Shown one piece after another: positions 6,431-25,120 of a stretch of DNA of 32,239 nt. The position numbers and the translations under genes were made by a program. Within the stretch, counting starts at the first letter, position 1; the number at the start of each line of letters is the position of its first letter. The DNA is taken from NCBI GenBank assembly GCA_029866215.1, contig JARWZU010000036.1:1-32239 (forward strand). The letters run 5' to 3'. The notes beneath the pieces were generated by a model. The model saw only the letters and a program-made list of their open reading frames with translations, was not told the DNA's origin and searched no databases. Origin of the DNA: Akkermansiaceae bacterium. GTDB taxonomy: Bacteria > Verrucomicrobiota > Verrucomicrobiia > Verrucomicrobiales > Akkermansiaceae.

Positions 6431-6433
6431 GAT

Positions 6434-6895
6434 TCAAAGAGAATGTTCGTATTCCGCCCATGAGGATGAGGTCTCCCAAACTCTAACGCGGACGAGGCGG
6501 ACGCCAGGAGCGAGTCGATAGGGAGCATCGGCACGAGCCGCATAGGCCACCAATGATTTCACCGTATGATCAAAAATCGTGCGCGCCATCAGTTCGGTCG
6601 TCGGATCTTGGTGGTCAAATCCGATCACACGATCGCCGTAGCGCTCCTTGAAAGCGGCATAAGCGGGATCCGCGGTGTTAATGCACATCGCATGGTCAAA
6701 TGTGTCTAACCATTCACCGACCGCCTCTTTGATCATCTTGAAATCGCAGACCATTTCGTTTCCGTCAAGTTCATCAGCCTCCAGCACGAACTCGATCTTC
6801 CGCGTGTGCCCGTGTGGAAACTGGCACTTGTCGGGATGCTTGCTGAGCATGTGACCATTCTCAACCTCGAGCGATTTACAGATTCGGTATGGCAT
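6434..6895 (-). CDS. queD: 6-carboxy-5,6,7,8-tetrahydropterin synthase
   Basis: A 153-residue member of the PTPS/QueD family that turns dihydroneopterin triphosphate into 6-carboxytetrahydropterin. The zinc ligands His15, His28 and His30 and the catalytic Cys24 are visible in GHMLSKHPDKCQFPHGH (14-30). The second catalytic part FDHAMCIN and the C-terminal VRVWETSSSWAEY (with Glu for pterin anchoring) are also present. The Cys-x3-His-x-His spacing is that of QueD rather than of mammalian-type PTPS. It is followed after 3 bases by folE2, and 78 bases separate it from queC upstream. Confidence 0.94.
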   Translation of the reverse strand: MPYRICKSLEVENGHMLSKHPDKCQFPHGHTRKIEFVLEADELDGNEMVCDFKMIKEAVGEWLDTFDHAMCINTADPAYAAFKERYGDRVIGFDHQDPTTELMARTIFDHTVKSLVAYAARADAPYRLAPGVRLVRVRVWETSSSWAEYEHSL

Positions 6896-6973
6896 GAAGG
6901 ATGAGGTAACGTTTCAAATGAGAGACGAGACAATAAATGAAAACAAGATGGATTTGAACGCCTATTTAAATCT

Positions 6974-7654
6974 TTATCGCACAATCGGCAGATCCGGAGT
7001 TTGCTCGTAAAGGGTCGGGTCTTGCAAACCCGCCAGCACAAACGCTTCACGGCGCTCAACGCAGGTCCCGCACACCCCACAATGAATCTCCCCGCCTTTA
7101 TAACACGACCAAGTTTCTGAGAAATCCACTCCAAGCTCGACCCCACGCTTCGCAATCCCAGCCTTGTCGGTGGCAATGAACGGCCGCAGCAATTGAATCC
7201 GCGCATAAGTTCCTTCGCTCATGGCGGTCGCCATCGCATGCATAAAGGGCTCACGACAATCTGGATAGATCGCATGATCGCCCGAATGCGCAGCAATCAC
7301 CAACCCTTCCGCATCGATGCTCTCCGCATACCCTGCGGCGATCGCCAACATGATGCCATTTCGGAACGGGACGACCGTTTGCTTCATCGACTCCTCCGCA
7401 TAGTGGCCGTCAGGGATCTCGCCACCCGACTGCAGGAGATCGGACTTGAACAACCGATTCATGAAATCTAACGAAATTACCTGATGGGTAACTCCCCCAC
7501 GCTCCGCATGCAATTTCGCAAACGGAATCTCCCGCGCGCTGTGCTTCGACCCGTAATCAAATGAAAGACACGCCACCACTTCATGTTGGCCGAGCACCTC
7601 ATGGAAAGCAGCCACCGAATCCATGCCGCCACTCAGCAATACACAAACTTTCAT
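6974..7654 (-). CDS. queC: 7-cyano-7-deazaguanine synthase
   Basis: A 226-residue ATP-dependent amidotransferase-like enzyme that converts 7-carboxy-7-deazaguanine and ammonia to preQ0. It shows the PP-loop SGGMDS at residues 8-13 and LSFDYGSKHSAREI. The central region reads FRNGIMLAIAAGYAE and AAHSGDHAIYPDCREPF. The C-terminal zinc site is CYKGGEIHCGVCGTC, with four cysteines. The start codon overlaps the queF stop by four bases (7651-7654), so translation is coupled. Length is normal. Confidence 0.96.
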   Translation of the reverse strand: MKVCVLLSGGMDSVAAFHEVLGQHEVVACLSFDYGSKHSAREIPFAKLHAERGGVTHQVISLDFMNRLFKSDLLQSGGEIPDGHYAEESMKQTVVPFRNGIMLAIAAGYAESIDAEGLVIAAHSGDHAIYPDCREPFMHAMATAMSEGTYARIQLLRPFIATDKAGIAKRGVELGVDFSETWSCYKGGEIHCGVCGTCVERREAFVLAGLQDPTLYEQTPDLPIVR

Positions 7655-8489: not shown

Positions 8490-9284
8490 CTAGTTCTTTG
8501 CGGTCGCTGCAGGTGCTGGCTTCGGGCTATTCGCCTTGAGCGCCGCGGCGGTTTGTGAACTAGACCAAGTTTCAAACTGATCCTTCGGCAAAACCTCCAT
8601 CGATCCAACCATGTTCCCATGGCCTTCACCACAAAGCTGCGCGCAAACCACGAAAGTCTCCAAGGTCTTCACTGGGGTAAACCACATCGGGATTTCTCGG
8701 CCGGGGATCGCGTCCTGCTGAATCCGCATCGGAACGATGCAATAGTTATGAATCACATCCTTGGTGCCAATGTTGAGAACTACCGGTTTATCCACAGGCA
8801 ACTTGAGAATTGGACTGGTGAAATCATCGAGCGCATTCGGGTCAGTGTAGTCGATGCCAAGGTCATTGGATCCAGAGATCAACGCTGGGTCATGGCGCCC
8901 AAACTTGTTGTCCGCACCCGGGTAATGGTAAGTCCATCCGAACTGCCAACCCACCACACGGACGCGCAATGGATTCAAGTTTTGAACCTCTTTCCAGCTA
9001 TCAACCCGCTCAGCCCAGAGTGGAAATGCAAACCCGAGAAGCAAGACTGCCTCGATGATAATCACGCCAACTTCCAAGTGGCTCGAAAGATGACTCCTCA
9101 CCCCCTCATAAGACGCCTTTGGGTTGTTTTTATGCCAGAACCGGAAAATGCAGTAAAAGAAAAACAAGGTCCACCCCACGAACAGCGCGATCATGAACCA
9201 ATGAACTACGTCAATCATGTGATCAACCTGACCACCGTGCGCTGAGAAATTTTCAGGAATGCCTAGGAATTTTGAGGGACTCAT
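8490..9284 (-). CDS. coxB: Cytochrome c oxidase subunit II (CuA subunit)
   Basis: A 264-residue subunit that receives electrons from cytochrome c through the binuclear CuA centre. There are two N-terminal membrane helices (about 26-50 and 70-92), then a periplasmic cupredoxin domain. CuA ligands are visible: the first His in DVIHNYCIVPMRIQQDAIPG and the loop CAQLCGEGHGNM (two Cys, Glu carbonyl, His, Met). The aromatic entry segment VVGWQFGWTYHYPG is also present. There is no fused cytochrome c domain, so this is aa3-like rather than caa3-like. The C-terminus is an Ala/Pro-rich tail. Unusually for cox operons it is the last oxidase gene, after coxA, coxC, coxD and two tiny membrane genes. Confidence 0.95.
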   Translation of the reverse strand: MSPSKFLGIPENFSAHGGQVDHMIDVVHWFMIALFVGWTLFFFYCIFRFWHKNNPKASYEGVRSHLSSHLEVGVIIIEAVLLLGFAFPLWAERVDSWKEVQNLNPLRVRVVGWQFGWTYHYPGADNKFGRHDPALISGSNDLGIDYTDPNALDDFTSPILKLPVDKPVVLNIGTKDVIHNYCIVPMRIQQDAIPGREIPMWFTPVKTLETFVVCAQLCGEGHGNMVGSMEVLPKDQFETWSSSQTAAALKANSPKPAPAATAKN

Positions 9285-9806: not shown

Positions 9807-10148
9807 TCAGTGGCCTGAGTAGAAGAACTTATCGATTATCGGATCGCCAAGCGCAAGGGCGGTTAGACCCGCAAGACTGCAAACCATGCAAAGCCCGGAG
9901 CCAAACAGCCAGTAAACCGCCTTCCTCTCGTGATTAAGGTGCATGAAGATGAATGCAACTAGCGACGCTTTGAAGGTCGCGATCGTCAAACCGAGGATAC
10001 AGTCCGCGGCGTCAAATCCATGGCGTCCAAAATCCAACCAAGGCACCGTAGCCACCAAAACGGTGACGATGGTTCCTACGAATAAAATAGCTCCAACGAA
10101 CATATATGTTCGGACGGACTTCTTGATTGCTTCAGGAGTATCAGCCAT
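9807..10148 (-). CDS. coxD: Cytochrome c oxidase subunit IV (prokaryotic type)
   Basis: A 113-residue membrane protein with three predicted helices (about 14-35, 48-74 and 80-101). The second helix contains the family-typical pattern LTIATFKASLVAFIFMHLNHERK, i.e. the K(A/T)xLV..FFMHL signature of bacterial subunit IV (CtaF/CoxD-like). The subunit stabilises the catalytic core and has no cofactor. It lies 33 bases after coxC. The two tiny membrane genes and coxB follow. Confidence 0.88.
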   Translation of the reverse strand: MADTPEAIKKSVRTYMFVGAILFVGTIVTVLVATVPWLDFGRHGFDAADCILGLTIATFKASLVAFIFMHLNHERKAVYWLFGSGLCMVCSLAGLTALALGDPIIDKFFYSGH

Positions 10149-10181: not shown

Positions 10182-11795
10182 TTACATCAAATACAAAATC
10201 GGGAAAACGAAGATCCAGACAAGGTCAACGAAGTGCCAGAACAAGCCACCGATTTCGACCCGATTGGCAAGCCACTCTGGATCCGACAGGTACATCTTCT
10301 TTCCGAAAAACAAATAGTATGCAAGCACCAGCGCTCCACCAATCACGTGGAGACCATGAAGACCAGTAATCGCAAAATAAATGGCATAATAGGTGTTCCA
10401 GGCAGGCGTAAACTTAGAAGCAAATCCGACCTGCTCGCGCGGTACTGAAAGTCCAGGGAATGTCTCATCACCCCGCGCTTTATAATTTGGGCCAAAGAAT
10501 TCCTCTTTCGCCGCGTCGACACCCGAGAGCTTGGTACGACCATCATCCTCAGCTTTTTTTGCCAAGTCCTTCCAACCGATCCGGTAAAGCTCCTTGTGAG
10601 TCGGTGTGTAGCGGGGCTTACCATCCTTGCCGACGCCATGCGCCTTAAGCAGCTCGGCACTCAGTTTTTTAACCTCACCCTGGTGCCATGCCCATGCCTC
10701 CCTGACGAAGGCACTATTTTTCATGAGCCATGAATTCTCAATAGCGACCTCAGGATCGATCCCCTTCTCCTTGGCCTTCATGACCAAATGTTGGAAGTCG
10801 ATTGCATCAATGTTATGGAAGACCATGGGGCTCGCAAGAAGCTTCCCGTCGATCACCGTGTCATCACGAAGCCTTGACTGACCCTCGGCAGCCTTGATGT
10901 CCCGTGGGTGGAAATCAAGCTTTGCAGGTGGATCAACAGAAAACGGGACCGTCGAAATTTCACCAAGTAATGTTGGTGCCAACGCTGCCGTGTCGATGTT
11001 GACACCAGAGGCAATTTGCCAGTCTTTTTTGCCCGGATTCGCAGCCTTAGCGGTCACCCACTCAGCACGAAGCGCTTCGGTACGATTGGCCGCATTGTGG
11101 CTCCGCGCCGCAAGATGCACCGCTTGGAGGCGATTGAGAAGCTCGACGGAGAGAGGTTCCCCTGCTTTTGCAATGATCTCTGCGGACTGGCCCACCTTGG
11201 TGATCGCAGTGACATCCGCCGCTAATGCCACCTTCGAATGATGATGCTCAGCTTGCGCCAAGAGTTCCTCGACCCATGGCTTGTAGAAACGGACCGTATC
11301 AAAAGTCAGCTTCGACGCCTCCACAAAAATGAGATTCTCCTCGATCGTACTTCCTTTGTGATTGAGCACCGGTTTTCCATCCTCCGACTCCACACCGAGG
11401 TGACCCTCAACCACCGAATAGTCCTTCAACTTCAGGGCTTGGTGATGAAGCTTCGCGTTGTACTCGATGCCCTTGAGCACCATGAAAATCATCGCGCAGC
11501 CCACGGTGATTCCCATGAACAACTGAAACTTACGCCAATCGCGCAACTTCAACGACGCCCATGCGAATACCACCGTGATCGAGGAACCGATCAGTACGAA
11601 CGTATTGATCAAACCTGGAAGTACAGGCAGCGTCCGCTCAGGCCATGGATAGTCTGCGCCGAGACGCAGGAACACGTATGCCGATAAGAAACCGCCGAAG
11701 AGCATGACTTCAGAAGCAAGGAACAACCAGATGGCGATCTTCGAATTGAAGAGTCCGGTATCCTTTCGAGGAGTGACGACGTATGGAATTTCCAT
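10182..11795 (-). CDS. coxC: Cytochrome c oxidase subunit III with ~340-residue insertion
   Basis: A 537-residue protein, against about 190-270 for normal subunit III. The first 118 residues are canonical: helix 1 near 20-45, helix 2 near 57-83, and helix 3 near 90-111 ending in GIEY with the conserved helix Glu111. The last 76 residues (462-537) are also canonical, with YFAITGLHGLHVIGG and WHFVDLVWIFVFPILYL. Between them about 340 hydrophilic residues, mostly helical and charged, are inserted without a membrane segment. The frame is open and flanking homology is intact, so it is not a frameshift. In the five-helix topology this loop should face the periplasm, near where cytochrome c docks (inference). 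I recognise no domain in the insertion. Confidence 0.93.
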   Translation of the reverse strand: MEIPYVVTPRKDTGLFNSKIAIWLFLASEVMLFGGFLSAYVFLRLGADYPWPERTLPVLPGLINTFVLIGSSITVVFAWASLKLRDWRKFQLFMGITVGCAMIFMVLKGIEYNAKLHHQALKLKDYSVVEGHLGVESEDGKPVLNHKGSTIEENLIFVEASKLTFDTVRFYKPWVEELLAQAEHHHSKVALAADVTAITKVGQSAEIIAKAGEPLSVELLNRLQAVHLAARSHNAANRTEALRAEWVTAKAANPGKKDWQIASGVNIDTAALAPTLLGEISTVPFSVDPPAKLDFHPRDIKAAEGQSRLRDDTVIDGKLLASPMVFHNIDAIDFQHLVMKAKEKGIDPEVAIENSWLMKNSAFVREAWAWHQGEVKKLSAELLKAHGVGKDGKPRYTPTHKELYRIGWKDLAKKAEDDGRTKLSGVDAAKEEFFGPNYKARGDETFPGLSVPREQVGFASKFTPAWNTYYAIYFAITGLHGLHVIGGALVLAYYLFFGKKMYLSDPEWLANRVEIGGLFWHFVDLVWIFVFPILYLM

Positions 11796-11860: not shown

Positions 11861-13744
11861 TCAGTGGCTACCCGTTGGCTTCTCAGAAGAATCGAGGTGC
11901 TTTGGCTCTGTCCACTGCGGCAGGAAGTCGGCATCGCAATTGGGGCGGCTGTATTCGTAAGGTCCACGGTAAGTGACCGGCTCTTTCAAGAAATTTCCAT
12001 GCCCCGGAGGCGTCGGTGTCGCCCATTCAAGGGTCGTTGCGTGCCAAGGGTTATCACCCTCAGCCTTTTTCCCAAACTTCCATGCGGTGAAGAGGTTGAT
12101 GATGAATGGAATTTGGAAAAGTGCCATCGTCCAAGCACCCATGGACATGATAATGTTCATATCAATGTGCTGCACCACCGTGTTGCCGAAGATATTAACG
12201 CTATCAGCAGCCTTCGAGAGGTAGGCATCTCCACCATTGTACCAACGGCGATGAAATCCCGCCATCCCCTGCACCAACATCGGGAAGAAAATCAAATTCA
12301 TGCAAATCAGGCTGGGCCAGAAATGGAGATGATTGAGGGTCTTGCCCATGTAACGGCCGGTGATCTTGGGATACCAGTGGTGGATCCCCGCGAAGAATCC
12401 AAACAAAATCCCCGGTGCTACCACGTAGTGGAAATGACCGATCACGTAGTAAGTGTCGTGAAGGTGGAGGTCAGCCAAATTGAACGCCAGCGGCAGGCCC
12501 GTGAGACCACCAATTCCAAACATCGGAATGAATGCGCAGGCCCACATCATCGGAGTGGTGAAGCGAATCGAACCACCCCACAGCGAGATCAACATCGCCG
12601 TGATGATCACCACCGAAGGCACCGAAATCAAAACTGTGGTCGTTTGAAAGAAGGTCGAAACCGCAGCACCCATGCCCGTCATGTACATGTGGTGAGCCCA
12701 CACCACGAACGAAAGGAAACCTAGGAGGAGCACCGAGTAGACCATCGACTTATAACCCCAAAGCGGCTTGCGACTGTTTGCAGGAATGATTTCACTCACG
12801 CAAGCAAAGGCAGGAAGGAGAAGCACATACACTTCAGGATGCCCAAGGAACCAGAACAAGTGTTGGAACAAGAGCGGTGAACCACCACCCGAAAGATCCG
12901 CCAGCCCTTCACTCTTGGTGAACAGCCCGGAAGGCATGAAAAACGAAGAGTGGGTGACGCGGTCCATCAATTGCATGATGCCAGCGGCCTCAAGTGGCGG
13001 GAATGCAAGGAGTAAGAGAAAACCCGTCACCAACATCGCCCAGACAAAAAATGGCATCCGCATCCAAGTCATGCCACGCACCCGCAGGTTGATGATGGTT
13101 GTGATGAAATTGACTGAACCCAGAAGCGACGAAGTGATAAGGAAAACAAGGCCGATCAACCATTGGGTTTGGCCTGCCAACCATTGGTTCACCACTTGCC
13201 CATCGGCAAATCCAGCGAGCGGAGAATAGTTGGTCCAACCCGATTTGGCAGCGCCAGACTCAAAGAAGAAGGACGCACACATGATCAGGCCACCCAAGAG
13301 ATAAATCCAGTAGCTTGCCATATTGAGACGAGGAAACGCCATGTCGGGCGCACCGATCTGAAGTGGCGTCACGTAGTTACCAAACGCGCCGAAACCAAGC
13401 GGCACGATGCCAAGGAAAACCATGATCGTCCCGTGCATGGCACCAAACATGTTGTACGTTTCACCTGTTACCTTGCCGTCTTGCAGCCAGCGAGCCTTCC
13501 AACCATCGGTAAAGACCCAGCCCATCCACTCCGGAAGCGGCTGATGCGGATACGCAATGCTCCAGCGCATCACCATCATCAAATAAAATCCGAACGCGAG
13601 GAATAACAGTGCAGTGATACCGTATTGCAAACCAATCATCTTGTGGTCCGTGGAGAAAATCCATTTCTGGATGAATCCTGGATCGTGATGATGTTCGTCG
13701 TGGTGGGCATCGTGCCCGGCAGGTGCTGTGGAGTGAGAGCTCAT
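11861..13744 (-). CDS. coxA: Cytochrome c oxidase subunit I (aa3-type, haem-copper catalytic subunit)
   Basis: A 627-residue catalytic subunit with about twelve helices. The low-spin haem and active-site ligands are present: MHGTIMVF (helix II His), GHPEVY (CuB His, gate Glu and cross-linked Tyr, as in A1-type oxidases), WAHHMY (CuB His pair) and HDTYYVIGHFHYV (haem a3 and haem a His). The D-channel entry Asp is kept in GAPDMAFPRLN. Oddly, the helix that normally carries the K-channel lysine (VPTGVKVFSW in classic enzymes) reads VPSVVIITAM, so the lysine position is isoleucine by eye alignment. The N-terminus is His-rich and extended. The gene follows the second c-type cytochrome and precedes coxC in the operon. 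Confidence 0.96.
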   Translation of the reverse strand: MSSHSTAPAGHDAHHDEHHHDPGFIQKWIFSTDHKMIGLQYGITALLFLAFGFYLMMVMRWSIAYPHQPLPEWMGWVFTDGWKARWLQDGKVTGETYNMFGAMHGTIMVFLGIVPLGFGAFGNYVTPLQIGAPDMAFPRLNMASYWIYLLGGLIMCASFFFESGAAKSGWTNYSPLAGFADGQVVNQWLAGQTQWLIGLVFLITSSLLGSVNFITTIINLRVRGMTWMRMPFFVWAMLVTGFLLLLAFPPLEAAGIMQLMDRVTHSSFFMPSGLFTKSEGLADLSGGGSPLLFQHLFWFLGHPEVYVLLLPAFACVSEIIPANSRKPLWGYKSMVYSVLLLGFLSFVVWAHHMYMTGMGAAVSTFFQTTTVLISVPSVVIITAMLISLWGGSIRFTTPMMWACAFIPMFGIGGLTGLPLAFNLADLHLHDTYYVIGHFHYVVAPGILFGFFAGIHHWYPKITGRYMGKTLNHLHFWPSLICMNLIFFPMLVQGMAGFHRRWYNGGDAYLSKAADSVNIFGNTVVQHIDMNIIMSMGAWTMALFQIPFIINLFTAWKFGKKAEGDNPWHATTLEWATPTPPGHGNFLKEPVTYRGPYEYSRPNCDADFLPQWTEPKHLDSSEKPTGSH

Positions 13745-13816: not shown

Positions 13817-14581
13817 TTAAGGAGCCTTTGCTGGGGCAAGGGTGACTGGATCAAGCAAAGTCTTCGGATCCATCATTGCACCAGACAGAGCTCTTAAGTG
13901 ATCAGCGGTGAGTTCGGCTGAAGTGGCCGAGTTGCCTGCATTCTTGCGAGCCGCGGAGATCTCGAGCGCAGCCTTTGCCATATCAGTGGTGATCACGTCA
14001 CCCTTGGCGTTGCCAAAGTTATTGCGAACGTAGGTCATGATTCCCGCGAGATCCTCGGGTGCCATCCCAACCCCCTGAGCCGGCATCACTCCGTACGTTT
14101 TCCCATCGCTTACCGGGCCTTGTAAGCCATTGAGAATGATCATTGCAAAAAGCTCGGTTTCCCCATTGACCCAAGCAGAACCAACGAGCGACGGGTAAGT
14201 CGAACCGTTGCCCTTCGCATCCGAACCGTGACAGCCGTTGCATTTGGCCGAGTAAATCTTTGCACCCTTCGCCATGTAGGCGGCGAGCGCCTCTTTCGGC
14301 ACTGGCCCGCTGTCTGCCGTTCCTGGTGCCGAGGCACGAACGTAACCTTCACGGAACGTGGCCTTGTACGAAAACAAAGCACCGCCACCCGCCAGAACAC
14401 CACCTGCAATCAAAAGAACAACACCACAAGCGATCAACGCCCAGATCGAAATGGAGCCGATCCCATTGTCAACCACACGATTTTCGCGGGCACAAGCGGC
14501 AGCCTCACGGATCACCCGCTCGTGAGCCTCACTCACATTGATCGATTCCTCCAGATCTGGATTTTGGTTTGGCAGAGACAT
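13817..14581 (-). CDS. Membrane-anchored monohaem cytochrome c (paralogue of the cytochrome at 16890)
   Basis: A 254-residue protein: a cytoplasmic N-terminal segment of about 42 residues, one membrane helix (about 43-70) and a periplasmic class I cytochrome c domain with haem motif CNGCH (114-118). Candidate axial Met lies in YGVMPAQGVGM. After the haem domain there is a helical tail rich in Ala. The segment MTYVRNNFGNAKGDVIT closely parallels LTYIRNSFGNKASAVT of the cytochrome at 16890-17648, so the two are probably paralogues. They sit on either side of the CcoN-like/CcoO-like pair. The probable role is electron relay between alternative complex III, the CcoNO-like module and CuA of the oxidase. 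Confidence 0.88.
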   Translation of the reverse strand: MSLPNQNPDLEESINVSEAHERVIREAAACARENRVVDNGIGSISIWALIACGVVLLIAGGVLAGGGALFSYKATFREGYVRASAPGTADSGPVPKEALAAYMAKGAKIYSAKCNGCHGSDAKGNGSTYPSLVGSAWVNGETELFAMIILNGLQGPVSDGKTYGVMPAQGVGMAPEDLAGIMTYVRNNFGNAKGDVITTDMAKAALEISAARKNAGNSATSAELTADHLRALSGAMMDPKTLLDPVTLAPAKAP

Positions 14582-14610: not shown

Positions 14611-15318
14611 TCAACGAGCACCCTTGGCCTTCGGTGGCGCAAAGCTGAGCACCGCAGGAACGGCTTGGTCTTTCTTGAGTGATAATAGGTAGGATACGAG
14701 CGCTTTTGCATCCGCGCTAGCCACTAATTCTTCGCCATCCTCCGCGCCGAAGGGCATAGCCTCGTCTGACGGATTCCCTTTAATCTTACGCGTTTCAAAC
14801 AAAAACTGATGGGGTGGGCAAGTGGACTTCCAACGGTCCGCCTCACTGCGAGGATTGTAAAGGTGACTGAGCAACCATTGAGACGCCTCGAGCGGACTAG
14901 CATACTCGGACTCCACTCGGCGACCGATGTTCGACAAATCAGGGCCCATGCGGGCAACCCCGACTTGCGCAAATTTCTCACCAAAGAAGTCATAGGCATT
15001 GGTCTCACGGCGAGTGTCTCCTCGGTCAGGATCCGCTTTCAAGCCACCCCAATCCGCGCGATAGAGGTCATTTCCTGCATAAGTGGGTCGCACGACCTGC
15101 GTGTGGCAGAGATAGCAACCATTCTCAGCATAAACCTTAGCCCCGTCAGCGATCCGTCCGGTGCGCTTTGGGTAGAAGATGCCGGTGGAACCATCATTCG
15201 CCTCCGAAAGCTGGATCGGCTCAAGATTGCGCATCGTGATGAATGGCACGACGACGATCGCGAGCCAGGCGGCGCCAAAACTGGCGGATAAACCGAGGAT
15301 GAATGTGCGGAAGCTCAT
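14611..15318 (-). CDS. CcoO/FixO-like monohaem cytochrome c
   Basis: A 235-residue protein with an N-terminal membrane anchor (about 7-29) and a cytochrome c domain. The haem motif is in NGCYLCHTQVVRP (67-78), very like the NGC.GCHSQMIRP of CcoO, the cbb3 oxidase subunit II. GPDLSNIG and HLYNPR are further CcoO hallmarks. The segment where CcoO has its axial Met (KMPSYPWL) reads STCPPHQFLF (165-174) here, so the Met appears replaced by Cys167. Another Met such as Met188 could serve instead. It lies 37 bases downstream of the CcoN-like gene and is almost surely its partner subunit. No CcoP or CcoQ gene is present. Naming it ccoO would imply an active cbb3 oxidase, which the partner does not support. 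Confidence 0.87.
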   Translation of the reverse strand: MSFRTFILGLSASFGAAWLAIVVVPFITMRNLEPIQLSEANDGSTGIFYPKRTGRIADGAKVYAENGCYLCHTQVVRPTYAGNDLYRADWGGLKADPDRGDTRRETNAYDFFGEKFAQVGVARMGPDLSNIGRRVESEYASPLEASQWLLSHLYNPRSEADRWKSTCPPHQFLFETRKIKGNPSDEAMPFGAEDGEELVASADAKALVSYLLSLKKDQAVPAVLSFAPPKAKGAR

Positions 15319-15355: not shown

Positions 15356-16861
15356 TCAATGTGCGGCAGCGTGACCCGGGCCAGCGTTGTCGATATCGCC
15401 CTCCTCACCGTGAGGACCAGGACCATGGTGGGCATCTGAAACCAACAGTGTCGGATGGAGACTGCGTCTTCCAAGACGCAACCACATCAAAGCAAGGTGG
15501 ATGAAGAAGAAAACATTAGAGAACAGAATGAAGCACCATGCGATGGTGGTTGCGACGGCGTAAGGGTAGGCCCGCGTGGCAGCACCTTGCCAAGGCTGCT
15601 GCCATTCCTCCTGACCGATCCCCTGCTGGAGCCCTCCGAAGAGAGCAACCGCTGCAACGGTGATGATTCCGTACACCGAAAACAAAAAGTGAATCTTGAT
15701 CAGGCGACGTGAAAGCCACTCCCTGCCAGTGACCCGGGGCACGATGAAATACACCGAGCCAAACATGACAAAACTAAAGAAACCGTAGATCGCAAGGATT
15801 TCAAACCCATAGCCAGACAGCGAAAACTGCGTGAGTGGCAGGGTCGATCCGGGAAGATTTAGCCAGACGGCTGCCAAGCCAAGAAGGATGAGGCCGCCAA
15901 TACCAGTAATCATGAAACGAAGTGAAGGACTGCTCGCGACGACCGCCGGGGAGGACAAGGTCGTACGGAGGATGTTGACTGCAGCACAAACCGCTGGAAC
16001 AAAAAATAGCACGGTGGCTGCAGCACCTACGTAAGGAAGGAAAAATGGGATCGGTGCACCCATCAGCTTTTGCATTCCAGCCCAAGGCCCGATGATCGCC
16101 AGCGACCAAAATCCAAGTTTAGCGAGCGAGTAACTGAAGACCGGCCGACCAGTAACCTTAGGAGCAAGATAGTAGGCAGCAGCCAAAGCGACTGGGGTGA
16201 AGAAAAGGAAGACCAGTGCCGACCGATACCAAGCATTAATGCCTGCGGCCATCAGCGGATGACCAGGGATGCAATGAAGCAATGTGTTTGCCGTGATAAA
16301 CACCCATGGGAACCAAACCATTGCGGCAAGAAGATACCACTGAGAAATGTAAACATGCCCTTCGGGACGCACGCGAAACTGAATGAACGATCCGATAACA
16401 ATTGCGGTGTACGACACCAAAAACACGGGCCACACGAAGGAGGGAAATTCCATCCAAGGCATCCCGGTGCCGTTGCCCGAGAGAATTCCGACAAGGCCCA
16501 ACGAAACACCAAGGTTCCAAATGTGCCCAGCGGTGAGAATAATACCAGCCGAGGTGCACTCTTTCCGCGAAAGGCGCGCCATCAGCCAAATGATCACCGC
16601 AAACGCCGCTTGAAAGCCCCAACCGTAGATCAGCGCGTTGATGTGAGAGGGAAATACCCGCCCATAGTCAAGCCAAGCGCAGCCAGACATGAAGCCAGGG
16701 CTATGCACCTTGGCCGATGCGATGATCCCCAAAACGATCGACACCGCTAGCCATGCGGCCCCGCTGGTCATGAAAAACATCACAGGGTGACGAAGCGAAC
16801 GGTCGATCCCTGCACGCAGCAAGGCGTCCTGATCACTGGAATTTTGAATGGCAGATGACAT
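15356..16861 (-). CDS. CcoN-like membrane protein lacking catalytic haem-copper ligands
   Basis: A 501-residue polytopic protein of the cbb3 oxidase subunit I (CcoN) fold. CcoN landmarks are clear: SHINALIYGW (His73, low-spin haem ligand), YYLAPKVTGRPVFSY, FWSLAIIGPWAG and SVYFIVPRVTGREW. Aligned by eye with CcoN, the CuB histidine of helix VI is Ser214. The His-His pair of helix VII is Gln264-Lys265, and the cross-linked Tyr position is a Gly. The helix X HxH that binds haem b3 and haem b reads Phe353-Glu-Ile355. Only one of six haem/copper histidines remains, so oxygen reduction is not possible in the known way. The C-terminal tail is His-rich. The start at 16861 avoids overlap with the upstream gene; the frame extends to 16939. 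It is likely a non-catalytic scaffold or electron-transfer subunit. Confidence 0.85.
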   Translation of the reverse strand: MSSAIQNSSDQDALLRAGIDRSLRHPVMFFMTSGAAWLAVSIVLGIIASAKVHSPGFMSGCAWLDYGRVFPSHINALIYGWGFQAAFAVIIWLMARLSRKECTSAGIILTAGHIWNLGVSLGLVGILSGNGTGMPWMEFPSFVWPVFLVSYTAIVIGSFIQFRVRPEGHVYISQWYLLAAMVWFPWVFITANTLLHCIPGHPLMAAGINAWYRSALVFLFFTPVALAAAYYLAPKVTGRPVFSYSLAKLGFWSLAIIGPWAGMQKLMGAPIPFFLPYVGAAATVLFFVPAVCAAVNILRTTLSSPAVVASSPSLRFMITGIGGLILLGLAAVWLNLPGSTLPLTQFSLSGYGFEILAIYGFFSFVMFGSVYFIVPRVTGREWLSRRLIKIHFLFSVYGIITVAAVALFGGLQQGIGQEEWQQPWQGAATRAYPYAVATTIAWCFILFSNVFFFIHLALMWLRLGRRSLHPTLLVSDAHHGPGPHGEEGDIDNAGPGHAAAH

Positions 16862-16889: not shown

Positions 16890-17648
16890 TTATGGTTTGA
16901 TGAGTTCCTCGGCGAGAAGTTGCGGCTTACCGACCTCACTGCGAAGCGCGGCCACTTGGGCAGCAGTCACTGCGGATGCTTTGTTTCCAAAGCTATTGCG
17001 AATATATGTCAGGACCCCAGCGATTTGCTCGTCGTTCTGATAGCTGAGCGCCGCCATCCCTACCGCGAAGTTGTAGTCCTTGCCTGCGACCTTGATCGGG
17101 CCCTTCAGACCGCGCAGCTGAATGCGAATGAGGTTAGAAACAGGTCCCGTCACCCACTCCGAATCCGCGAGCGGCGGCGCGATCGGCCCACCCTCACCAT
17201 TCTGACCGTGGCATGCGCTGCACACCAAATAGGAAGCCTTCCCCGAAGCCATTACCGCAGGATCGATCGGAGCGTCAGAACCCGCAGTCGCTGCATCGAC
17301 AGCCTTCGTATCCACCGCAGGAGCAGCTGCAAGTTTCTTTGCGGTATCCGACCCTGGTACAACTTGGGCCGGGATGCTCACGGCAATCGGCTTTGAATCC
17401 GCGAGCTGCTTGGCCACTGTGGCAGCCGCAGCTTCAATCGACTCGGGTGAAAGATTCGCGGCCTGAGCGGCATCGATCTTGGCCTTCGTCGCATAGCGAG
17501 GCTGTGCAGCAGCATCCTCGAGCGAGGTGGGCTCAGGGCGGACAAAAAGCCAGATTACAGCGAGCAATACAGCAAAGATAAGGAAGGTGCCAATGCCCCA
17601 CCAGAAAGTGGTGAAACGGATCAGCGGATTATCGCGGGATGGGTCCAT
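16890..17648 (-). CDS. Membrane-anchored monohaem cytochrome c with Ala-rich linker
   Basis: A 252-residue protein: N-terminal anchor (about 15-37), a long Ala/Lys/Pro-rich flexible linker (about 42-128), and a class I cytochrome c domain with CSACH (143-147). A candidate axial Met lies in FAVGMAALSY. The flexible linker resembles those that let tethered cytochromes swing between complexes. Its C-terminal half resembles the cytochrome at 13817-14581. It starts 17 bases after actF and is followed 28 bases later by the CcoN-like gene. It is a plausible electron carrier from alternative complex III, occupying the place where some operons carry actG or a soluble cytochrome c. Confidence 0.88.
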   Translation of the reverse strand: MDPSRDNPLIRFTTFWWGIGTFLIFAVLLAVIWLFVRPEPTSLEDAAAQPRYATKAKIDAAQAANLSPESIEAAAATVAKQLADSKPIAVSIPAQVVPGSDTAKKLAAAPAVDTKAVDAATAGSDAPIDPAVMASGKASYLVCSACHGQNGEGGPIAPPLADSEWVTGPVSNLIRIQLRGLKGPIKVAGKDYNFAVGMAALSYQNDEQIAGVLTYIRNSFGNKASAVTAAQVAALRSEVGKPQLLAEELIKP

Positions 17649-17665: not shown

Positions 17666-18976
17666 TCAGTTAGAAACGTTCGCGGATTCAAGGATGCGTG
17701 GATCGCGGTTCGGGTAGAGCGAATGTTGACTAAGCGCACGCAGAAGGAAGAAGATGAATGCCGCACCGATCGTCACGAAGGCGAGGATGTCGCCCCAAAA
17801 CGCACCAGGGATCGATACTTGAATATCGCCGAACACCTCTGGCTTGATGTTGCCCAAGGAGACACCGCGCTCGGGAATCGTGATCAAGTAATGGTCGAGC
17901 GCGTGCATGCACAAGGTATAGACGGCAACGATTGAGAGCAATTTCGGATTCTTCTTCAGCCAGGCTTGCAAAAGAACCACGAAGGGCACCACGAAATGGC
18001 CGAAAACGAGGAAATACATCGCCACGTTCCAATTGCCCGTGTTGCGAATGGCAAAGTAGGAAGTTTCCTCCGTGATGTTTGCGTACCAGATCAGGAAAAA
18101 CTGCGAGAATGCAATGTATGCCCAGAACGTCGTGAACGCGAACATCAGCTTACCCATGATGTGGAAATGCTCTGGTCCGGTGACGTGCTTCAAGTGGCCC
18201 TGGCTCTTCAACCAGGTACAGACGAGCACAATAACCGCCATCGAATTGAGTGCGGTGCCGGCGAAGATATACACACCCCACATGGTCGAGAACCAGCGGT
18301 AATCCAAGCCCATCAAGAAATCAAAGCCGGTGAACGTGATCGTCAACGCGAAAATGATCAGCGTGTAGGTCGAATGAAAACGCGCCTTCAATAACCGATT
18401 GGTGCCCGGATTCGGATCAGTGTCTTGGGCGGTCGAAAGTTTGCGGAGCCCATAGATCACAGCGCTGAGACCAAGCGCATAAAATGCCACGCGACCATAC
18501 CAGAACGGTTGATTCATGAACCAATACTTACTGTAGAGAAGATGGTCATGGTGGTGAAGATACTCTTTTACGGCACCGGGTGCCTTATTGTGGGTATTCA
18601 TCCACTCATAAAGGTAAACTTGCACTTTTGGAAACAACAGCGGCGTGCCGAACAGAAACACCCATGGAAACGTCGAGCCCAAGTTTTCAAACGTGCGACG
18701 CACCGAAGTTCCCCACCCCGAGTTCGACACATTGTGGAGCAAGGTCCAGAACACCCCACCAATCGAGAGAGTGAGGAAATAATAAAAGGCGAACAGCCAA
18801 GAGTAAGCATATGGCCCGCGAAGCTTCTCCGGCGCAAAGAACAAGAGATAAACGCTGGCTACGGTGCCGAGAACTGCAAGGGTCAAAGCGATGCTCTTCA
18901 ACTTCGAGGTCTTCGAAGTGTCAAGATGATCGCCGTGTATCGCGATTTCGGCGGAGGTGACGTGGTGATGGGCCAT
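17666..18976 (-). CDS. actF: Alternative complex III subunit ActF
   Basis: A 436-residue integral membrane protein of the quinol:cytochrome c/oxidase oxidoreductase (ACIII). About ten membrane helices are visible, including the segments SWLFAFYYFLTLSIGGVFW, FHSTYTLIIFALTITFTGFDFLMGL and MFAFTTFWAYIAFSQFFLIWYANI. The F..FWAYIAFSQF.LIWYAN motif is typical of ActF. ActF is a distant NrfD-like paralogue of ActC that builds the membrane arm and possibly a proton path; it binds no cofactor. The His-rich N-terminus is cytoplasmic. It is sixth in the actA-F order, 21 bases after actE. Confidence 0.93.
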   Translation of the reverse strand: MAHHHVTSAEIAIHGDHLDTSKTSKLKSIALTLAVLGTVASVYLLFFAPEKLRGPYAYSWLFAFYYFLTLSIGGVFWTLLHNVSNSGWGTSVRRTFENLGSTFPWVFLFGTPLLFPKVQVYLYEWMNTHNKAPGAVKEYLHHHDHLLYSKYWFMNQPFWYGRVAFYALGLSAVIYGLRKLSTAQDTDPNPGTNRLLKARFHSTYTLIIFALTITFTGFDFLMGLDYRWFSTMWGVYIFAGTALNSMAVIVLVCTWLKSQGHLKHVTGPEHFHIMGKLMFAFTTFWAYIAFSQFFLIWYANITEETSYFAIRNTGNWNVAMYFLVFGHFVVPFVVLLQAWLKKNPKLLSIVAVYTLCMHALDHYLITIPERGVSLGNIKPEVFGDIQVSIPGAFWGDILAFVTIGAAFIFFLLRALSQHSLYPNRDPRILESANVSN

Positions 18977-18997: not shown

Positions 18998-19648
18998 TTA
19001 TTTAGCCTTGGCTTGAGCCTCTTTGGCGGTTTGCAAGGTGCGGACATAAGCGATGATTGCCCAGCGGTCATTGACCGGAATGTTGTAGCCGTATGCACCC
19101 ATCATGCCCTTGCCGAGGGTGATAGTTTCGAACATCCTACCGTCGGGATAGGAAGCAGGCTTGAAGGCATCTAGGTGGAAATTCGCAATTCCGGGAACCC
19201 CGTACTGCCCCGTCACTCCCTGACCGTCGCCCGATTTGCCGTGGCACACCGCACAATAGATCCCATAGCGTTCCTTGCCACGCTGGACCAGAGCGTTTGC
19301 GCTTTCTTCGTCCAACTTAAGCTCCTCTGGCATGCCAGAGCCGAAATAATCTCCCACGTGACCGGTGTAGTAGTAACCAGTCTGTCCACCAAATTCATAC
19401 TCAGGAATTCCGCCAATCGACTGAGCACCATCATCATTGAATCCACGGGGCTGGGTTTCAGCGACGGGTTGGCGTGAACCATGACCATCTGCAAAAAATG
19501 GGTCAGGCTTTTGCGCACGCAGCTTGTCCTGCTCGTCCATGTCCGGGAAGATCCGAATAGGAGGCTTGGAAAACTTCTGGCCGCGGAACCCAAAAAGGCC
19601 AACGACTAGCAACGCGATCAGCGCGTAAGTGAGAAAAAAGTAACGCAT
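18998..19648 (-). CDS. actE: Alternative complex III monohaem cytochrome c subunit ActE
   Basis: A 216-residue periplasmic cytochrome c with an N-terminal signal/anchor (about 3-20, no lipobox cysteine). ActE-typical FxxxPPIRIFPDMDEQDKLRAQ follows it (26-46). The haem motif is CAVCH (132-136). The probable axial Met is in LGKGMMGAYGYNI, and the C-terminal helix is WAIIAYVRTLQ. It takes electrons from the ActA pentahaem chain and passes them on. It lies between actD and actF as in other ACIII operons. Confidence 0.94.
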   Translation of the reverse strand: MRYFFLTYALIALLVVGLFGFRGQKFSKPPIRIFPDMDEQDKLRAQKPDPFFADGHGSRQPVAETQPRGFNDDGAQSIGGIPEYEFGGQTGYYYTGHVGDYFGSGMPEELKLDEESANALVQRGKERYGIYCAVCHGKSGDGQGVTGQYGVPGIANFHLDAFKPASYPDGRMFETITLGKGMMGAYGYNIPVNDRWAIIAYVRTLQTAKEAQAKAK

Positions 19649-19691: not shown

Positions 19692-20246
19692 TCAGTCCTC
19701 CTCTTCGACCAGCTCGATGTTTGACCCGCCAACCTCAGCGAGGAAATCATGGGTCCCTATCGGACTAAACTTAGGATCACGAGCCTCGATGGCGATGAAG
19801 AAACCGTCGTCCGTCGCACGGCTGAACTGGCTGCTTGCAAACAACGGATGGTTAAGGCGTGGCAACTGGATCAAGGCAAGGAGGCCAAACAAAACGGCGA
19901 AGCCTGAGAACAAAATCGTCAGCTCGAACATGATTGGAAAAAACGCTGGCACGGTGAAGATATTCGCGGGTTTTGCCTGAACAATCGTCGGGTAGATGAC
20001 CACCTGAGTGCTGTAGGCCAGCGCAAATGCAGTCGCGGTGCCGGTCATTCCTCCGAAGAAAACGAACCAAGGAAGGATCGAGCGCTTCATGCCCATCGCC
20101 CCATCCAAGCCGTGGACTGGATAGGGAGAATAACAATCCCACTTCTTGAAGCCGGCGTCGCGGATTTTCTCCGCACCCTTGTAAAGAGCAGATGCGCTCT
20201 TGAACTCGGCTAGATAGCCATAAACGCGTTTGCGGGTGGTGCTCAC
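19692..20246 (-). CDS. actD: Alternative complex III subunit ActD (DUF3341)
   Basis: A 184-residue membrane subunit. The N-terminal cytoplasmic part GYLAEFKSASALYKGAEKIRDAGFKKWDCYSPYPVHGLD (10-48) is the DUF3341 signature. Two membrane helices follow (about 60-82 and 100-127), then a C-terminal soluble segment HPLF...DDGFFIAIEARDP. The subunit has no cofactor and supports the ActC-ActF membrane arm. The start codon is GTG (20246-20244). Spacing is 30 bases from actC and 43 bases to actE. Confidence 0.94.
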   Translation of the reverse strand: MSTTRKRVYGYLAEFKSASALYKGAEKIRDAGFKKWDCYSPYPVHGLDGAMGMKRSILPWFVFFGGMTGTATAFALAYSTQVVIYPTIVQAKPANIFTVPAFFPIMFELTILFSGFAVLFGLLALIQLPRLNHPLFASSQFSRATDDGFFIAIEARDPKFSPIGTHDFLAEVGGSNIELVEEED

Positions 20247-20276: not shown

Positions 20277-21752
20277 TTATTTGGAGGACACGAGCTCTTT
20301 TTGATATGCAGCCTCGGTGACCACGCCGTGGTCAGGATGATCTTTGACATCGTCGAAGTGTGGATCGGACTCAAGCAAGGTCCACTTCACCTCTGCAATG
20401 TTGATGCAGGGCAAGAAACGCAAGAACATGAGGAAAAGCGCAAGGAACAGGCCGATGGTACCCACGAAGGTCATCAACTCAACCCCACTGGGAGAATAAG
20501 TTTTCCAATCCCCCGGCAGCCACATCCGTGCCAAAGTCGTGCAGATGATCACAAAGCGCTCGAACCACATCCCGACGTTCACACACATCGCGACGATCAT
20601 GATTACCCAAAGGTTTTCGCGGCACGCCTTGAACCAGAACACCTGCGGCGAAAGCACGTTGCAGCTCATCATCGCGGCGTAGGCCCACCAGTATGGACCG
20701 GCGATCCGGAACTTGAATGCATCCATCTCATAGATCGCACCCGAGTAGAACGCGACGAACAATTCCATCAGGTAGGCATAACCAACGATGGTTCCGGTCA
20801 GAAGAATGATCTTCGCCATGTTGTCGATGTGCTTCATGGTGATCACATCCTGAAGCCCATAGATGAAGCGGGCCGGAACCATGATCGTGAGCACCATCGC
20901 AAATCCACCGAAGATGGCACCTGCGACGAAATAAGGAGGGAAGATGGTCGTGTGCCAGCCAGGCACCACCGAGGTTGCGAAGTCGAACGAAACCACCGAG
21001 TGCACCGAGAGCACGAGCGGAGTGGAGAGAGCGGCGAGCAACAGATAGGCCATTTCGTAGTGGCTCCACTGGCGGTTGCCCCCACGCCAACCGAGCGCGA
21101 AAATTCCATAGAGCATCTTGCGGATGCCTGGCTTGCAGCGGTCGCGGATGGTGGCAAGGTCAGGAACCATGCCGAGATACCAAAAAATCAACGAAATAGT
21201 GAAATAGGTGGAGACCGCGAACACGTCCCAAAGCAGTGGCGACTTGAAGTTTTGCCAGATGGCATTCGCATTCGGAACGGGAGCGAGGAACCAAGCAAAC
21301 CAAACTCGACCGACGTGGAAGGCAGGGAAAATCCCTGCGCAAATCACCGCGAAAATCGTCATGGCCTCGGCCGCGCGATTGATCGATGTCCGCCAATTTT
21401 GGCGAGTCAGGAACAACACCGCAGAAATCAGCGTTCCTGCGTGTCCGATCCCGATCCAGAAAACGAAGTTCGTAATATCAAATCCCCAGAAAACTCGGTT
21501 TGACATCCCCCAAACACCCACACCCGTCGAAACAAGATACGTGAGTCCACCGCCCACCCCGATCATCGCGATCAACGCCGAAGGAATAAACAGCAACCAC
21601 CAGAGGAAGGGTTGACGGTTTTCAAGAACGCCACAGATGCGCTCGGTGATCCAGTGATACGAACGACCGCTGAGGATGAGCTTTTCGCGCTCAAGCACCG
21701 GTAACTTGACCCCAGTGTGGGTCTCAGGTGCGGTTTGGGTGGTGGAAGCCAT
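20277..21752 (-). CDS. actC: Alternative complex III quinol-binding subunit ActC (NrfD/PsrC family)
   Basis: A 491-residue polytopic protein of the NrfD/PsrC family with about ten helices. ActC features include [84 protein letters not shown] and [16 protein letters not shown]. The first two helices of these contribute the quinol site in characterised ACIII, near the ActB [3Fe-4S] cluster. Length matches other ActC proteins. It lies 35 bases downstream of actB, in the canonical order. Confidence 0.95.
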
Positions 21753-21787: not shown

Positions 21788-24700
21788 TCAGACCATGTGG
21801 ACAGTCGCCTTGCCGACGAACTTGGCGTCGGGCATTTTAGGATTCGGATTCTTCACACGCGCCAGATAGCTGGTGCGAGGGCGGGTGCCGATATAGTTGA
21901 GAAGGTCGTAATTCCGCTCAATCTTCTTGCTGCGACCCAAGACAGATTTTTCTTCGTCGAACAGATTTCCGAAGGTGATGGCACCTGCAGGGCAAGCGTC
22001 TTGGCATGCGGTCTTCACCGAATCCACCGGAATCCGGAGGGTGTGCAGATCGACTTTCATCTCGGTCGATGGCTTTCCAGCCACGAGGGCCTCTTGCTTT
22101 TGGCCGCGCTTCTGACGGATCACCGCGTCCTTGAGACGCTGCACACAATAGGTGCACTTTTCCATCACACCGCGCATGCGGACCGTGACATTCGGGTTCT
22201 TCTGAAGGTGAGGTGCTTCGCCGGTTTGCTTCTCACCAAATGGTCCCTTGTAGAGGTTGTGAGAGATGAGCGGGTTGCGCTTGTTGTAATCGAAATAGTT
22301 GAATCGACGCGCCTTGTATGGGCAGTTGTTCGCGCAATAGCGAGTTCCGATGCAGCGGTTGTAGGCCATCGCATTGAGGCCATCCTCCGTATGGATCGTC
22401 GCATTGACTGGGCAAACGGTTTCACAGGGAGCGGATTCACACTGCACGCAAGCCACTGGCTGCGGGACCATCTCCGGATTGTCCTCGTCGAACGTATTGT
22501 CCTTCTGTGCCGCAAAGTAACGATCCATCCGAATCCAGTGCATTTCACGACCCATCCCAACCTGCTTTTTGCCGACGATTGGAATGTTGTTTTCCGATTG
22601 GCAAGCGACAAGGCAAGAATTGCAACCCATGCAGGAAGAAAGGTCGATCGACATCCCCCACTGATGCAGCGGATCATTGATGAGCGGCTGATCCTTGCGG
22701 TCGGTGGGTTTGTAGAGCGAAATATTTGGCGGAGCGTGAGCGTCGTTGCCCTGCTTTGGCACATTGGCCAACTGAGCGGCAAACGATCCCTTTTGCTCGT
22801 CCACCATCGTAGATACCTCACGAGCGAGTGCGCGACCATACATCGCATGGTGCTCTTGCGTCAGCGAGACCGAGTAGCGTTTGCTCGTAGGTTTGGCGGT
22901 TGCGCCCGTGGCGAAATACGAAGTGGCAGCGGTGCGCAACGGATAGGCATCGAAACCGCGGTTGACGCCGACAAGGCCGACATGGCACTCGTTCTTTGGT
23001 CCACGCTTCAACTCGTCGTGCTCGTCGAAACCTTGACCGTAGCCCAGCGGGATCACCAGGGTGTTTTCTGCTTGGCCGAAGGAAACCAGCACAGGAATCT
23101 CAAGAGATTTTCCGTTCACCGTGACCAGAATCATCGGTGAGGTGCGGTTCTGAGCCTCATCATCCGGCGAGCGAGATCCAAACGGTGTTTCGAGAGCGAT
23201 GATCTGATCGTAAACCCCAAGTTCCTTGGCGGTCTTGGGTGCGACGAGAGCCACGTTGTCCCATGTCAGTTTGGAAATCGGATCTGGCGCTTCCTGCAAC
23301 CAACCATTATCAATCCAGCGACCGTCGAAGATCGACGAATCCGTCGCGAAGATAAGTTCGAGCGAAGTTTTGGTTGGGGCCGTGGCCACCAAAGGTGCGG
23401 AGATATCGCTCCGGACCGCTGGTGTCACGGATGCGTATTGAGAGCCGGCAAAGAATCCATCGCGGAGCAATTGCTTCCATGCGGTTTCACCCTCGCCACC
23501 AAATCCAGCGAATGTCTTCCGCACTGCAGTGTATGCTGGTGACGCAGCGCCTTTCGCACCCTCGCCGCTGAGCAGCTTGCCGTCTTCCGAAAGCAAAGCC
23601 AAGAGTAGCTCCAACTCCGATACACATTCGGGATAAAGTGGAAGGATCATCGGCTGCACCATCGTGTAGGTGCCACGTGCACTTCGAGCATCGCCCCATG
23701 ACTCCAAGTAATGAGCAGATGGGACATGCCAAGTGGCCGCGTGAGCCGTTGCATCGGTCCGCATCCCCAAATGAATACTGGTCTTCAGCTTGGCAAAGGA
23801 TTCCACAAATTTTAGATCTGCGGGTGCGTCATGGATCGGGTTCGAGGGAGTCAAAACGACCAGCGTTTCGACCGCACCGGCATCGATGTCTGTCTTCAGG
23901 CTAGCGATGGAGCCGAGGCCCTTGGTCTCGGTTTGGAGCGCAACGAGTGGCTTGCCTTCGCCGATGTTGCCCAGTGCCACGTTAATCGCGTGAGCGAGCA
24001 AATGCACCGAGAGCGACTGACGCGAGCCGGCAAGTACCAATGACTTACCCGCATGCTCCTTGAGATCTTCGACAAGACCGGCAACCCAAGCGACTTGCTT
24101 CGCATCGGCGAGTTCTGGAGAAACAATCGCCACCCCAGCCTTAACGCCAAGCCCGCGCGCAACCTGTGCCGCCACGGCATTTACTTGGCTCGGCGCAACC
24201 CGCAAACGGTGATCGGCCATACCACCGGTGAGGGTGAACGCCGCTTCCACCGCGTAAAGGCGATTCATCTTCTTCGCATCTGGCTTTTCCGAGTAAAATT
24301 TACCTTCTGGCTTCCGGCGATCGAAGAACGAGGTGACCGGCCCCTGGGAATCGGTCCCTGCGAAATCACAGTCCAACGAGAGAATCCGGTCTGCCTTCGC
24401 ATAATTGGCCACCAGTTTCACCCCATCACCGAGCGCCGTCGGAGCAGCATCACCGGTGAGAGCCTCGTATTGATAAAACTTCGCAGCAGAAAACTTTGCC
24501 GCCAATTCCTTGGTAAGGCGTGCCCGAGTCGGGCTGTCATCCGCACCGAACAAGAACCCGATTTTCGCAGCCGGATCGGCGGCCAGCGAGGTGACGACCG
24601 CTTCAAAATCACCGCGTTTCGCGACTTGAGCCTTCTTGAGGATCTTGCGGGAACGCGACGGTGAGTAGAGATCCAAAACCGAAGCTTGGGCGAATGCATC

Positions 24701-25120
24701 CGTGCCCTCGACATCTGGATGCAACTTGTTTGGTGCCAAATGGGTTGGGCGACCTTCGAAGGTGGTCACCACAAGTGGCGTCGCCCCTTGGGCCCGCGGC
24801 ATGGATGACGCATAGTAAGTTGCGTTTCCGGGGATCACCCACTCCGGAGCCTTGGTGTAAGGTACAATATACCCTTCCGGGCGGCGGCAGGCGGCCATAC
24901 CAAAACCGGCCAACGCCGTCGATGCCCCCATCAACTTCAAAAACGAACGCCGGGAGCCCTCGGACTCCTCTCCATTCGCCAACTCCGCAGCACCTTGCGG
25001 GAACTCACGATCCAGCCACTGGCGGAATTCTGCCGTGTCCTCAAGTTGACCCGCACTGCGCCAGGCGACGGTGGTTTCGCCGGCGGGAACTTCGGGGTGG
25101 TGCCAAATACGCTTGCTCAT
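21788..25120 (-). CDS. actB: Alternative complex III iron-sulfur subunit ActB (molybdopterin-oxidoreductase-like fusion)
   Basis: A 1110-residue fusion. A twin-arginine-type motif SRRSFLKLMG lies at residues 56-65 after an N-terminal extension, as usual for ActB, so export is by Tat. The first two thirds (about 75-800) resemble molybdopterin oxidoreductases, but I see no N-terminal [4Fe-4S] cysteine motif or Mo ligand; ACIII ActB binds no molybdenum. The C-terminal third is a four-cluster ferredoxin-like domain with cysteine groups CMGCNSCLVAC (about 825), CVQCESAPCETVCP (about 885), CIGTRYCANNCP (about 925), CTYC (about 985) and CQDACP (about 1038). These carry quinol electrons to ActA. Frame intact; 35 bases to actC. 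Confidence 0.96.
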   Translation of the reverse strand: MSKRIWHHPEVPAGETTVAWRSAGQLEDTAEFRQWLDREFPQGAAELANGEESEGSRRSFLKLMGASTALAGFGMAACRRPEGYIVPYTKAPEWVIPGNATYYASSMPRAQGATPLVVTTFEGRPTHLAPNKLHPDVEGTDAFAQASVLDLYSPSRSRKILKKAQVAKRGDFEAVVTSLAADPAAKIGFLFGADDSPTRARLTKELAAKFSAAKFYQYEALTGDAAPTALGDGVKLVANYAKADRILSLDCDFAGTDSQGPVTSFFDRRKPEGKFYSEKPDAKKMNRLYAVEAAFTLTGGMADHRLRVAPSQVNAVAAQVARGLGVKAGVAIVSPELADAKQVAWVAGLVEDLKEHAGKSLVLAGSRQSLSVHLLAHAINVALGNIGEGKPLVALQTETKGLGSIASLKTDIDAGAVETLVVLTPSNPIHDAPADLKFVESFAKLKTSIHLGMRTDATAHAATWHVPSAHYLESWGDARSARGTYTMVQPMILPLYPECVSELELLLALLSEDGKLLSGEGAKGAASPAYTAVRKTFAGFGGEGETAWKQLLRDGFFAGSQYASVTPAVRSDISAPLVATAPTKTSLELIFATDSSIFDGRWIDNGWLQEAPDPISKLTWDNVALVAPKTAKELGVYDQIIALETPFGSRSPDDEAQNRTSPMILVTVNGKSLEIPVLVSFGQAENTLVIPLGYGQGFDEHDELKRGPKNECHVGLVGVNRGFDAYPLRTAATSYFATGATAKPTSKRYSVSLTQEHHAMYGRALAREVSTMVDEQKGSFAAQLANVPKQGNDAHAPPNISLYKPTDRKDQPLINDPLHQWGMSIDLSSCMGCNSCLVACQSENNIPIVGKKQVGMGREMHWIRMDRYFAAQKDNTFDEDNPEMVPQPVACVQCESAPCETVCPVNATIHTEDGLNAMAYNRCIGTRYCANNCPYKARRFNYFDYNKRNPLISHNLYKGPFGEKQTGEAPHLQKNPNVTVRMRGVMEKCTYCVQRLKDAVIRQKRGQKQEALVAGKPSTEMKVDLHTLRIPVDSVKTACQDACPAGAITFGNLFDEEKSVLGRSKKIERNYDLLNYIGTRPRTSYLARVKNPNPKMPDAKFVGKATVHMV

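Follow-up and report, generated by a model that had tools for sequence, protein, structure and literature searches.

Subunit I of a haem-copper oxidase is usually regarded as being defined by its ligands. The closest described systems are the cbb3 oxidases and the supercomplexes of alternative complex III (ACIII) with an A-family oxidase. For the cbb3 enzymes, CcoH, CcoI and CcoS are reported, in the accessible part of one account, to be essential to activity (PMC7558416). The Flavobacterium johnsoniae supercomplex is described, in the available text, as making its contacts via oxidase subunit III (PMC8361435), and the available portion of another report finds ActE to be dispensable for electron transfer to aa3, although growth is slower without it (PMC8552683). 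For a verrucomicrobial isolate, a 2026 paper gives, in the sections accessible, ActABCDEF with an oxidase designated caa3 next in order (PMC13274419). In the open-access literature searched, in so far as its texts were available, we found no report of a CcoN lacking its ligands, and none of a verrucomicrobial operon that combines ACIII with CcoN.

The window analysed here is the whole of a 32,239-nucleotide stretch from an Akkermansiaceae bacterium, and its closest named record is an Akkermansiaceae MAG with 98% protein identity. It contains an intact minus-strand operon of the order ActABCDEF - cytochrome c - CcoN-like - CcoO-like - cytochrome c - CoxACDB, made up as follows:

25167 to 25865, minus strand: ActA, ACIII subunit with five CXXCH motifs (6f0k_A, E 6.8e-52)
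21788 to 25120, minus strand: ActB, ACIII subunit (6f0k_B, E 3.7e-215)
20277 to 21752, minus strand: ActC, ACIII subunit (6f0k_C, E 7.3e-175)
19692 to 20246, minus strand: ActD-like membrane protein, named by position and kept in relatives
18998 to 19648, minus strand: ActE-like monohaem cytochrome c, named by position
17666 to 18976, minus strand: ActF, ACIII subunit (6f0k_F, E 1.5e-53)
16890 to 17648, minus strand: cytcX, a monohaem cytochrome c, occupying the place of a protein of about 95-170 aa without CXXCH in ligand-complete operons
15356 to 16861, minus strand: CcoN-like subunit without six of the seven catalytic or haem ligands, only His73 being left (PF00115, alignment to solved CcoN)
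14611 to 15318, minus strand: CcoO-like monohaem c protein, CXXCH kept, Cys167 at the axial Met site
13817 to 14581, minus strand: cytcY, a membrane-anchored monohaem cytochrome c with a CcoP-like domain
11861 to 13744, minus strand: CoxA, A-family oxidase subunit I, ligand motifs intact (profile matches and motifs)
10182 to 11795, minus strand: CoxC, subunit III with a long extra segment (profile matches)
9807 to 10148, minus strand: CoxD-like small membrane protein, named by position
8490 to 9284, minus strand: CoxB, subunit II with CuA motif (profile matches and motif)

ActA, B, C and F, in one cluster, match the solved ACIII structures 6f0k and 6btm (E from 6.8e-52 to 3.7e-215 against the 6f0k chains), CoxA carries the oxidase ligand motifs, and CoxB carries the CuA motif. 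The ACIII-aa3 context given in the preliminary description is thereby borne out; the names ActD, ActE and CoxD come from position and resemblance. The COX3 match of CoxC (537 aa) falls in two stretches, hence the extra segment. Elsewhere in the window lie neighbouring frames for what are presumably a KaiC-like double ATPase and a BLUF-like photoreceptor (1276-3442), and putative QueC-, QueD- and FolE2-like genes (5615-7654) that look like queuosine precursor synthesis.

The CcoN-like frame runs on the minus strand from 16861 to 15356, opens with ATG and encodes 501 aa, with an N-terminus common to most relatives. Its homology to subunit I is clear: it matches PF00115 (COX1) with E 1.8e-39 and 136 bits (cut-off 34.8), and phmmer aligns about 400 residues with solved CcoN (9g6b, 1.2e-22; 3mk7, 1.5e-20). 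The expectation that automated annotation would call it an active cbb3 oxidase needs correction: only the generic COX1 model passes, and the ccoN equivalog TIGR00780, which gives 105 bits against a cut-off of 583, would not name it ccoN. All seven functional positions, the roles of which we assume to follow the published cbb3 numbering, can be read. Of the six histidines and the active-site tyrosine of a cbb3 CcoN, His73 is the sole survivor; Ser214, Gly258, Gln264, Lys265, Phe353 and Ile355 stand at the sites of the three CuB histidines, the tyrosine (Gly258), the b3 histidine and the second low-spin haem histidine. These are exactly the residues first named from the sequence.

Ligands at shifted positions had been put forward as the finding that would overturn this assignment, and they are excluded as far as an alignment allows. 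Indeed, the window's protein has no gap against solved CcoN at any of the four ligand sites. In a 93-row alignment of relatives, where the nearest relative (L001) stands for the window, the ligand segments are gap-free in 93/93 rows for helices II and VI, 92/93 for VII and 89/93 for X, and the rows with gaps belong to clades other than the window's. The window's clade has 15 rows in this alignment, and positions 73, 113, 391 and 455 are the only ones at which all of them have histidine. Gln264 is also invariant in the clade and Lys265 nearly so. That His73 is invariant in this clade may point to a remaining role of some kind.

A scan of species genomes returned 57 verrucomicrobial and three proteobacterial relatives. 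No His or Tyr was found at the six lost sites in any of the 55 relatives covering them (L001-L055); L056 covers two ligand sites, both substituted, and L057 covers only His73. Of the proteobacterial proteins, L058 and L059 have the full set of seven residues; L060, which covers six of the positions, has all six. A profile built from 35 relatives, run against 387 genomes of the phylum, gave matches in 98, ten of which are distant, outside the class and all ligand-complete; since the two genome sets come from two releases and may overlap, counts pooled from them are not fully independent. Within the class there are 88 ACIII-linked homologues, window included: 28 with all seven residues and 60 with at most three. 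Of the 59 deficient rows placed on the tree, 17 keep none of the seven, 35 one, five two and two three. The order ActF-CcoN-CcoO, conserved synteny of the kind that the preliminary description proposed to look for, is kept in 87/88, the remaining locus being cut by a contig end. That description contained neither the ligand-complete sisters in the same operon setting nor the CcoO substitution described below.

Loss extends beyond the ligands. Arg70, Trp210, Asn215, Ser247, Tyr324 and His345 are near-invariant in ligand-complete proteins and lost in most deficient rows (Ser247 and Tyr324 belong to what we take to be the K-channel region). On the other side, 34 residues that are near-invariant in the ligand-complete set persist in at least 90% of deficient rows. 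His73 itself is absent from 35 of the 44 ligand-less loci outside the window's clade, in the same operon. Two loci (L085 and L086; wider cuts L167 and L168) are intermediates: they have His73, their second low-spin haem site is likewise occupied by His (HNSQRYH), and they might still hold a low-spin haem b even though no CuB site is left. A further degenerate clade (L130-L134, L136, L143 and L146-L149) repeatedly shows a set of its own at the seven sites, namely Q-Q-G-R-H-Q-Q or close variants of it.

The state of the ligands is matched by that of an assembly factor. Using our own profile, seeded from seven of the ligand-complete operons, we found a CcoS-like gene directly upstream of CcoN in 27/27 ligand-complete operons against 0/109 ligand-less ones, counting loci with enough flank and leaving out six others (one complete, five ligand-less). 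The independent Pfam model PF03597 matched next to CcoN in 19 of the 28 ligand-complete genomes, 18 of these matches exceeding the cut-off, versus 0 of 48 ligand-less; in one ligand-less genome (G295) a match lies beside another COX1 gene. The window's own genome (G000, 97.4% complete) has no CcoS match at E 0.001. It also lacks CcoG (TIGR02745), but so do 9/28 ligand-complete genomes, which makes CcoG uninformative as a second assembly marker. The comparison indicates that ligands and ccoS were lost together, and more than once.

Trees bear on the number of losses. On a CcoN tree from which the ligand columns were excluded, a loss-only count requires three losses for the ligand-deficient rows, one of which (L110) is nested in the ligand-complete part of family f3. 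An AU test on 65 of the 93 rows, 28 long or redundant ones having been dropped, rejected a single clade of deficient rows (p-AU 8.4e-5), and did so less firmly when L110 was set aside (p 0.03). A midpoint-rooted tree of ActB and ActC, covering 81 of the 87 operons chosen, gave a loss-only count of 14. The two trees conflict in f5, where the ligand-complete L094 and L169 fall among QQGRHQQ operons on the operon tree, possibly through exchange of ccoN or through tree error. Since this conflict may inflate the operon-tree count, we place more trust in the lower number. Ligand loss therefore seems to have arisen several times within one bacterial class.

Between the window and three relatives, dN/dS of the CcoN-like gene was 0.029, 0.036 and 0.053, close to the values for CoxA (0.036, 0.020 and 0.025); dS was 0.3-0.4 for the first comparison and approached saturation for the second and third. 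Values of about 0.03-0.05 point to a gene that is selected, and a decaying pseudogene is ruled out by these ratios together with long open frames in relatives. The window's form is under strong purifying selection.

The partner protein has also changed. The window's CcoO-like protein retains CXXCH but has Cys in place of the methionine that is the axial haem ligand in cbb3 structures. This methionine is kept in 28/28 ligand-complete operons and in 7/7 other ligand-complete rows. With L060 (ligand-complete where covered) taken out of the deficient class, CXXCH is kept in 115/115 ligand-less rows; the methionine is replaced by Cys in all 71 CcoO proteins of the window's clade, window included. 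Of the 44 ligand-less rows outside this clade, 35 have the methionine and nine have K, R, H or A at its site. The CcoO haem of the window's clade is probably also off the main electron path, and outside that clade, with the methionine kept in 35/44, it may still carry electrons. We considered whether a haem gained by cytcX compensates for the CcoO change. This was only partly supported: in the window's clade the protein at the cytcX place has a haem motif in 50/65 and none in 15, though every aligned CcoO of the clade has Cys. Several loci with a motif-less protein at this place (L037, L039-L041, L043 and L045-L048) have no coxA found in the locus, some of the loci being short.

The genome of the window has two COX1-family matches, CoxA and the CcoN-like protein, and no match to cytochrome bd subunit I. 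We examined 75 further genomes (47 of the 60 ligand-less and all 28 ligand-complete), calling A-family oxidases at a bit score of at least 390, with G384 called via a contig-edge fragment bearing A-family motifs. An A-family oxidase is absent from 4/28 ligand-complete versus 0/47 ligand-less genomes, with p 0.017, a value that is optimistic because the four genomes belong to two genera, related genomes not being independent in such an association; a third genome from one of these genera (G163) has the oxidase. All 48 ligand-less genomes examined, the window's own included, therefore carry one. Since 24/28 ligand-complete genomes do so too, its presence alone does not explain ligand loss. In two small genomes, G001 and G146 (L101 and L099), nothing but a ligand-complete ACIII-linked CcoN matches COX1, which makes these loci candidates for an ACIII-C-family supercomplex. 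An aa3 cluster directly downstream failed as a predictor of ligand loss, CoxA lying beside the ligand-complete L170 and near L116; the association that held was the weaker one at the level of whole genomes. In the fetched flanks, coxA was found at none of the f5 loci, ligand-less or not, and within the window's clade it was missing from some as well. The docking of aa3 is therefore not necessarily direct.

Sequence comparison shows that the CcoN-like protein descends from CcoN within a conserved ActABCDEF-CcoN-CcoO-cytochrome c operon. We consider it most probable, at roughly 0.7, that it is a pseudo-oxidase: a C-family subunit I that has lost the sites for haem b, haem b3 and CuB and has been kept as a structural membrane subunit of an ACIII assembly. 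That it is non-catalytic is well supported by the relatives, purifying selection, the loss of ccoS and the repeated loss on the trees. A scaffold role in an ACIII-oxidase assembly is our best inference, the association being seen as synteny. The ancestor would have been an ACIII joined to a C-family oxidase module in an ACIII-cbb3-like supercomplex. Takeover of O2 reduction by an A-family oxidase might then have left the CcoN active site free to decay, the protein being retained because it would anchor CcoO and the cytochromes c beside ACIII and perhaps help to dock the aa3 oxidase. Electrons would pass from quinol through ACIII and one or more cytochrome c domains to CuA and aa3, by-passing CcoN. 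The preliminary view of a non-catalytic cbb3 relative with conserved synteny is strongly supported, but its suggestion of electron or proton coupling through CcoN is not, as the second low-spin ligand and the residues that we assign to the K channel are gone.

Two alternatives, each unlikely, deserve most attention. One supposes a residual redox role, with His73 plus another ligand, or a His/Cys-ligated CcoO haem, still relaying electrons. The constancy of His73 in the window's clade and of CXXCH in all CcoO rows fits this idea, and Cys in 71/71 CcoO proteins suggests selection for that residue. However, the second low-spin haem ligand has gone, the other invariant histidines (113, 391 and 455) probably lie towards the cytoplasmic half, judging by helix and loop order, CcoS is missing, and His73 has disappeared from most ligand-less loci outside the clade without change to the operon. 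The other, to which we give about the same small weight, is that the CcoN-like protein is a regulator or assembly chaperone that helps to build or tune aa3 or ACIII and is not a stable subunit. Non-catalytic homologues often turn into regulators, and in a large part of the window's clade the gene sits at a fixed place, with act genes on one side and cox genes on the other; yet throughout the class the core residues are conserved jointly with the CcoO partner, and many members have no adjacent coxA. A proton or ion conduit, in which Gln264-Lys265 form a new polar path through the emptied active site, seems very improbable: the conservation of this pair and the recurring polar set QQGRHQQ of another clade speak for it, but the polar sets differ among lineages and Ser247 and Tyr324 are lost in most deficient rows. 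Shifted ligands, or an annotation or assembly artefact, have nothing in their favour and can be dismissed, given ligand sites free of gaps in the window and nearly all relatives, an identical state in 55 records, and the low dN/dS.

Returning to the structural subunit, we lean towards a broader reading in which pseudo-oxidases recur in the haem-copper superfamily, the C-family catalytic subunit of ACIII operons having repeatedly become a cofactor-free architectural one, with its assembly factor lost in step and the haem c of its partner re-ligated to Cys in one clade. If so, the protein would have outlived its chemistry repeatedly and in parallel; sisters with the full ligand set occur in the same operon, and intermediates bear two or three ligands. 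Such a system would make it possible to examine which functions CcoN has apart from catalysis and how oxidases are gained or exchanged in supercomplexes. It also means that counting COX1 matches overstates the number of oxidases in Verrucomicrobiota.

Finally, the locus can be set against known systems. It resembles cbb3 CcoN and CcoO (PDB 3mk7, 9g6b and 8smr) in having a subunit I that is homologous along some 400 residues and a CcoO partner that carries a single haem c motif; it differs in the replacement of six of the seven residues, in the Met to Cys change of CcoO, in having no CcoS and in falling below the ccoN cut-off. The ACIII-aa3 of F. johnsoniae and ACIII-caa3 of Rhodothermus (6btm, 6f0k) likewise combine ACIII genes with an A-family partner (available text of PMC8552683), but no CcoN or CcoO subunit is described for either in the accessible parts of the reports (PMC8361435, PMC8552683). 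The closest relatives found outside the phylum are proteobacterial CcoN-CcoO-cytochrome c trios (Aquariibacter L058, Paraburkholderia L181 and Azoarcus L182; 31-34% identity); in contrast to the window, no ActA-F were found by L058-L060 and none are annotated within 5 kb of L181 and L182. The ligand-complete ACIII-linked CcoN proteins of other Verrucomicrobiia (for example L093 and L170) belong to the same subfamily and have the same ActABCDEF-CcoN-CcoO core order, but keep all seven residues, the CcoO methionine and an adjacent ccoS.
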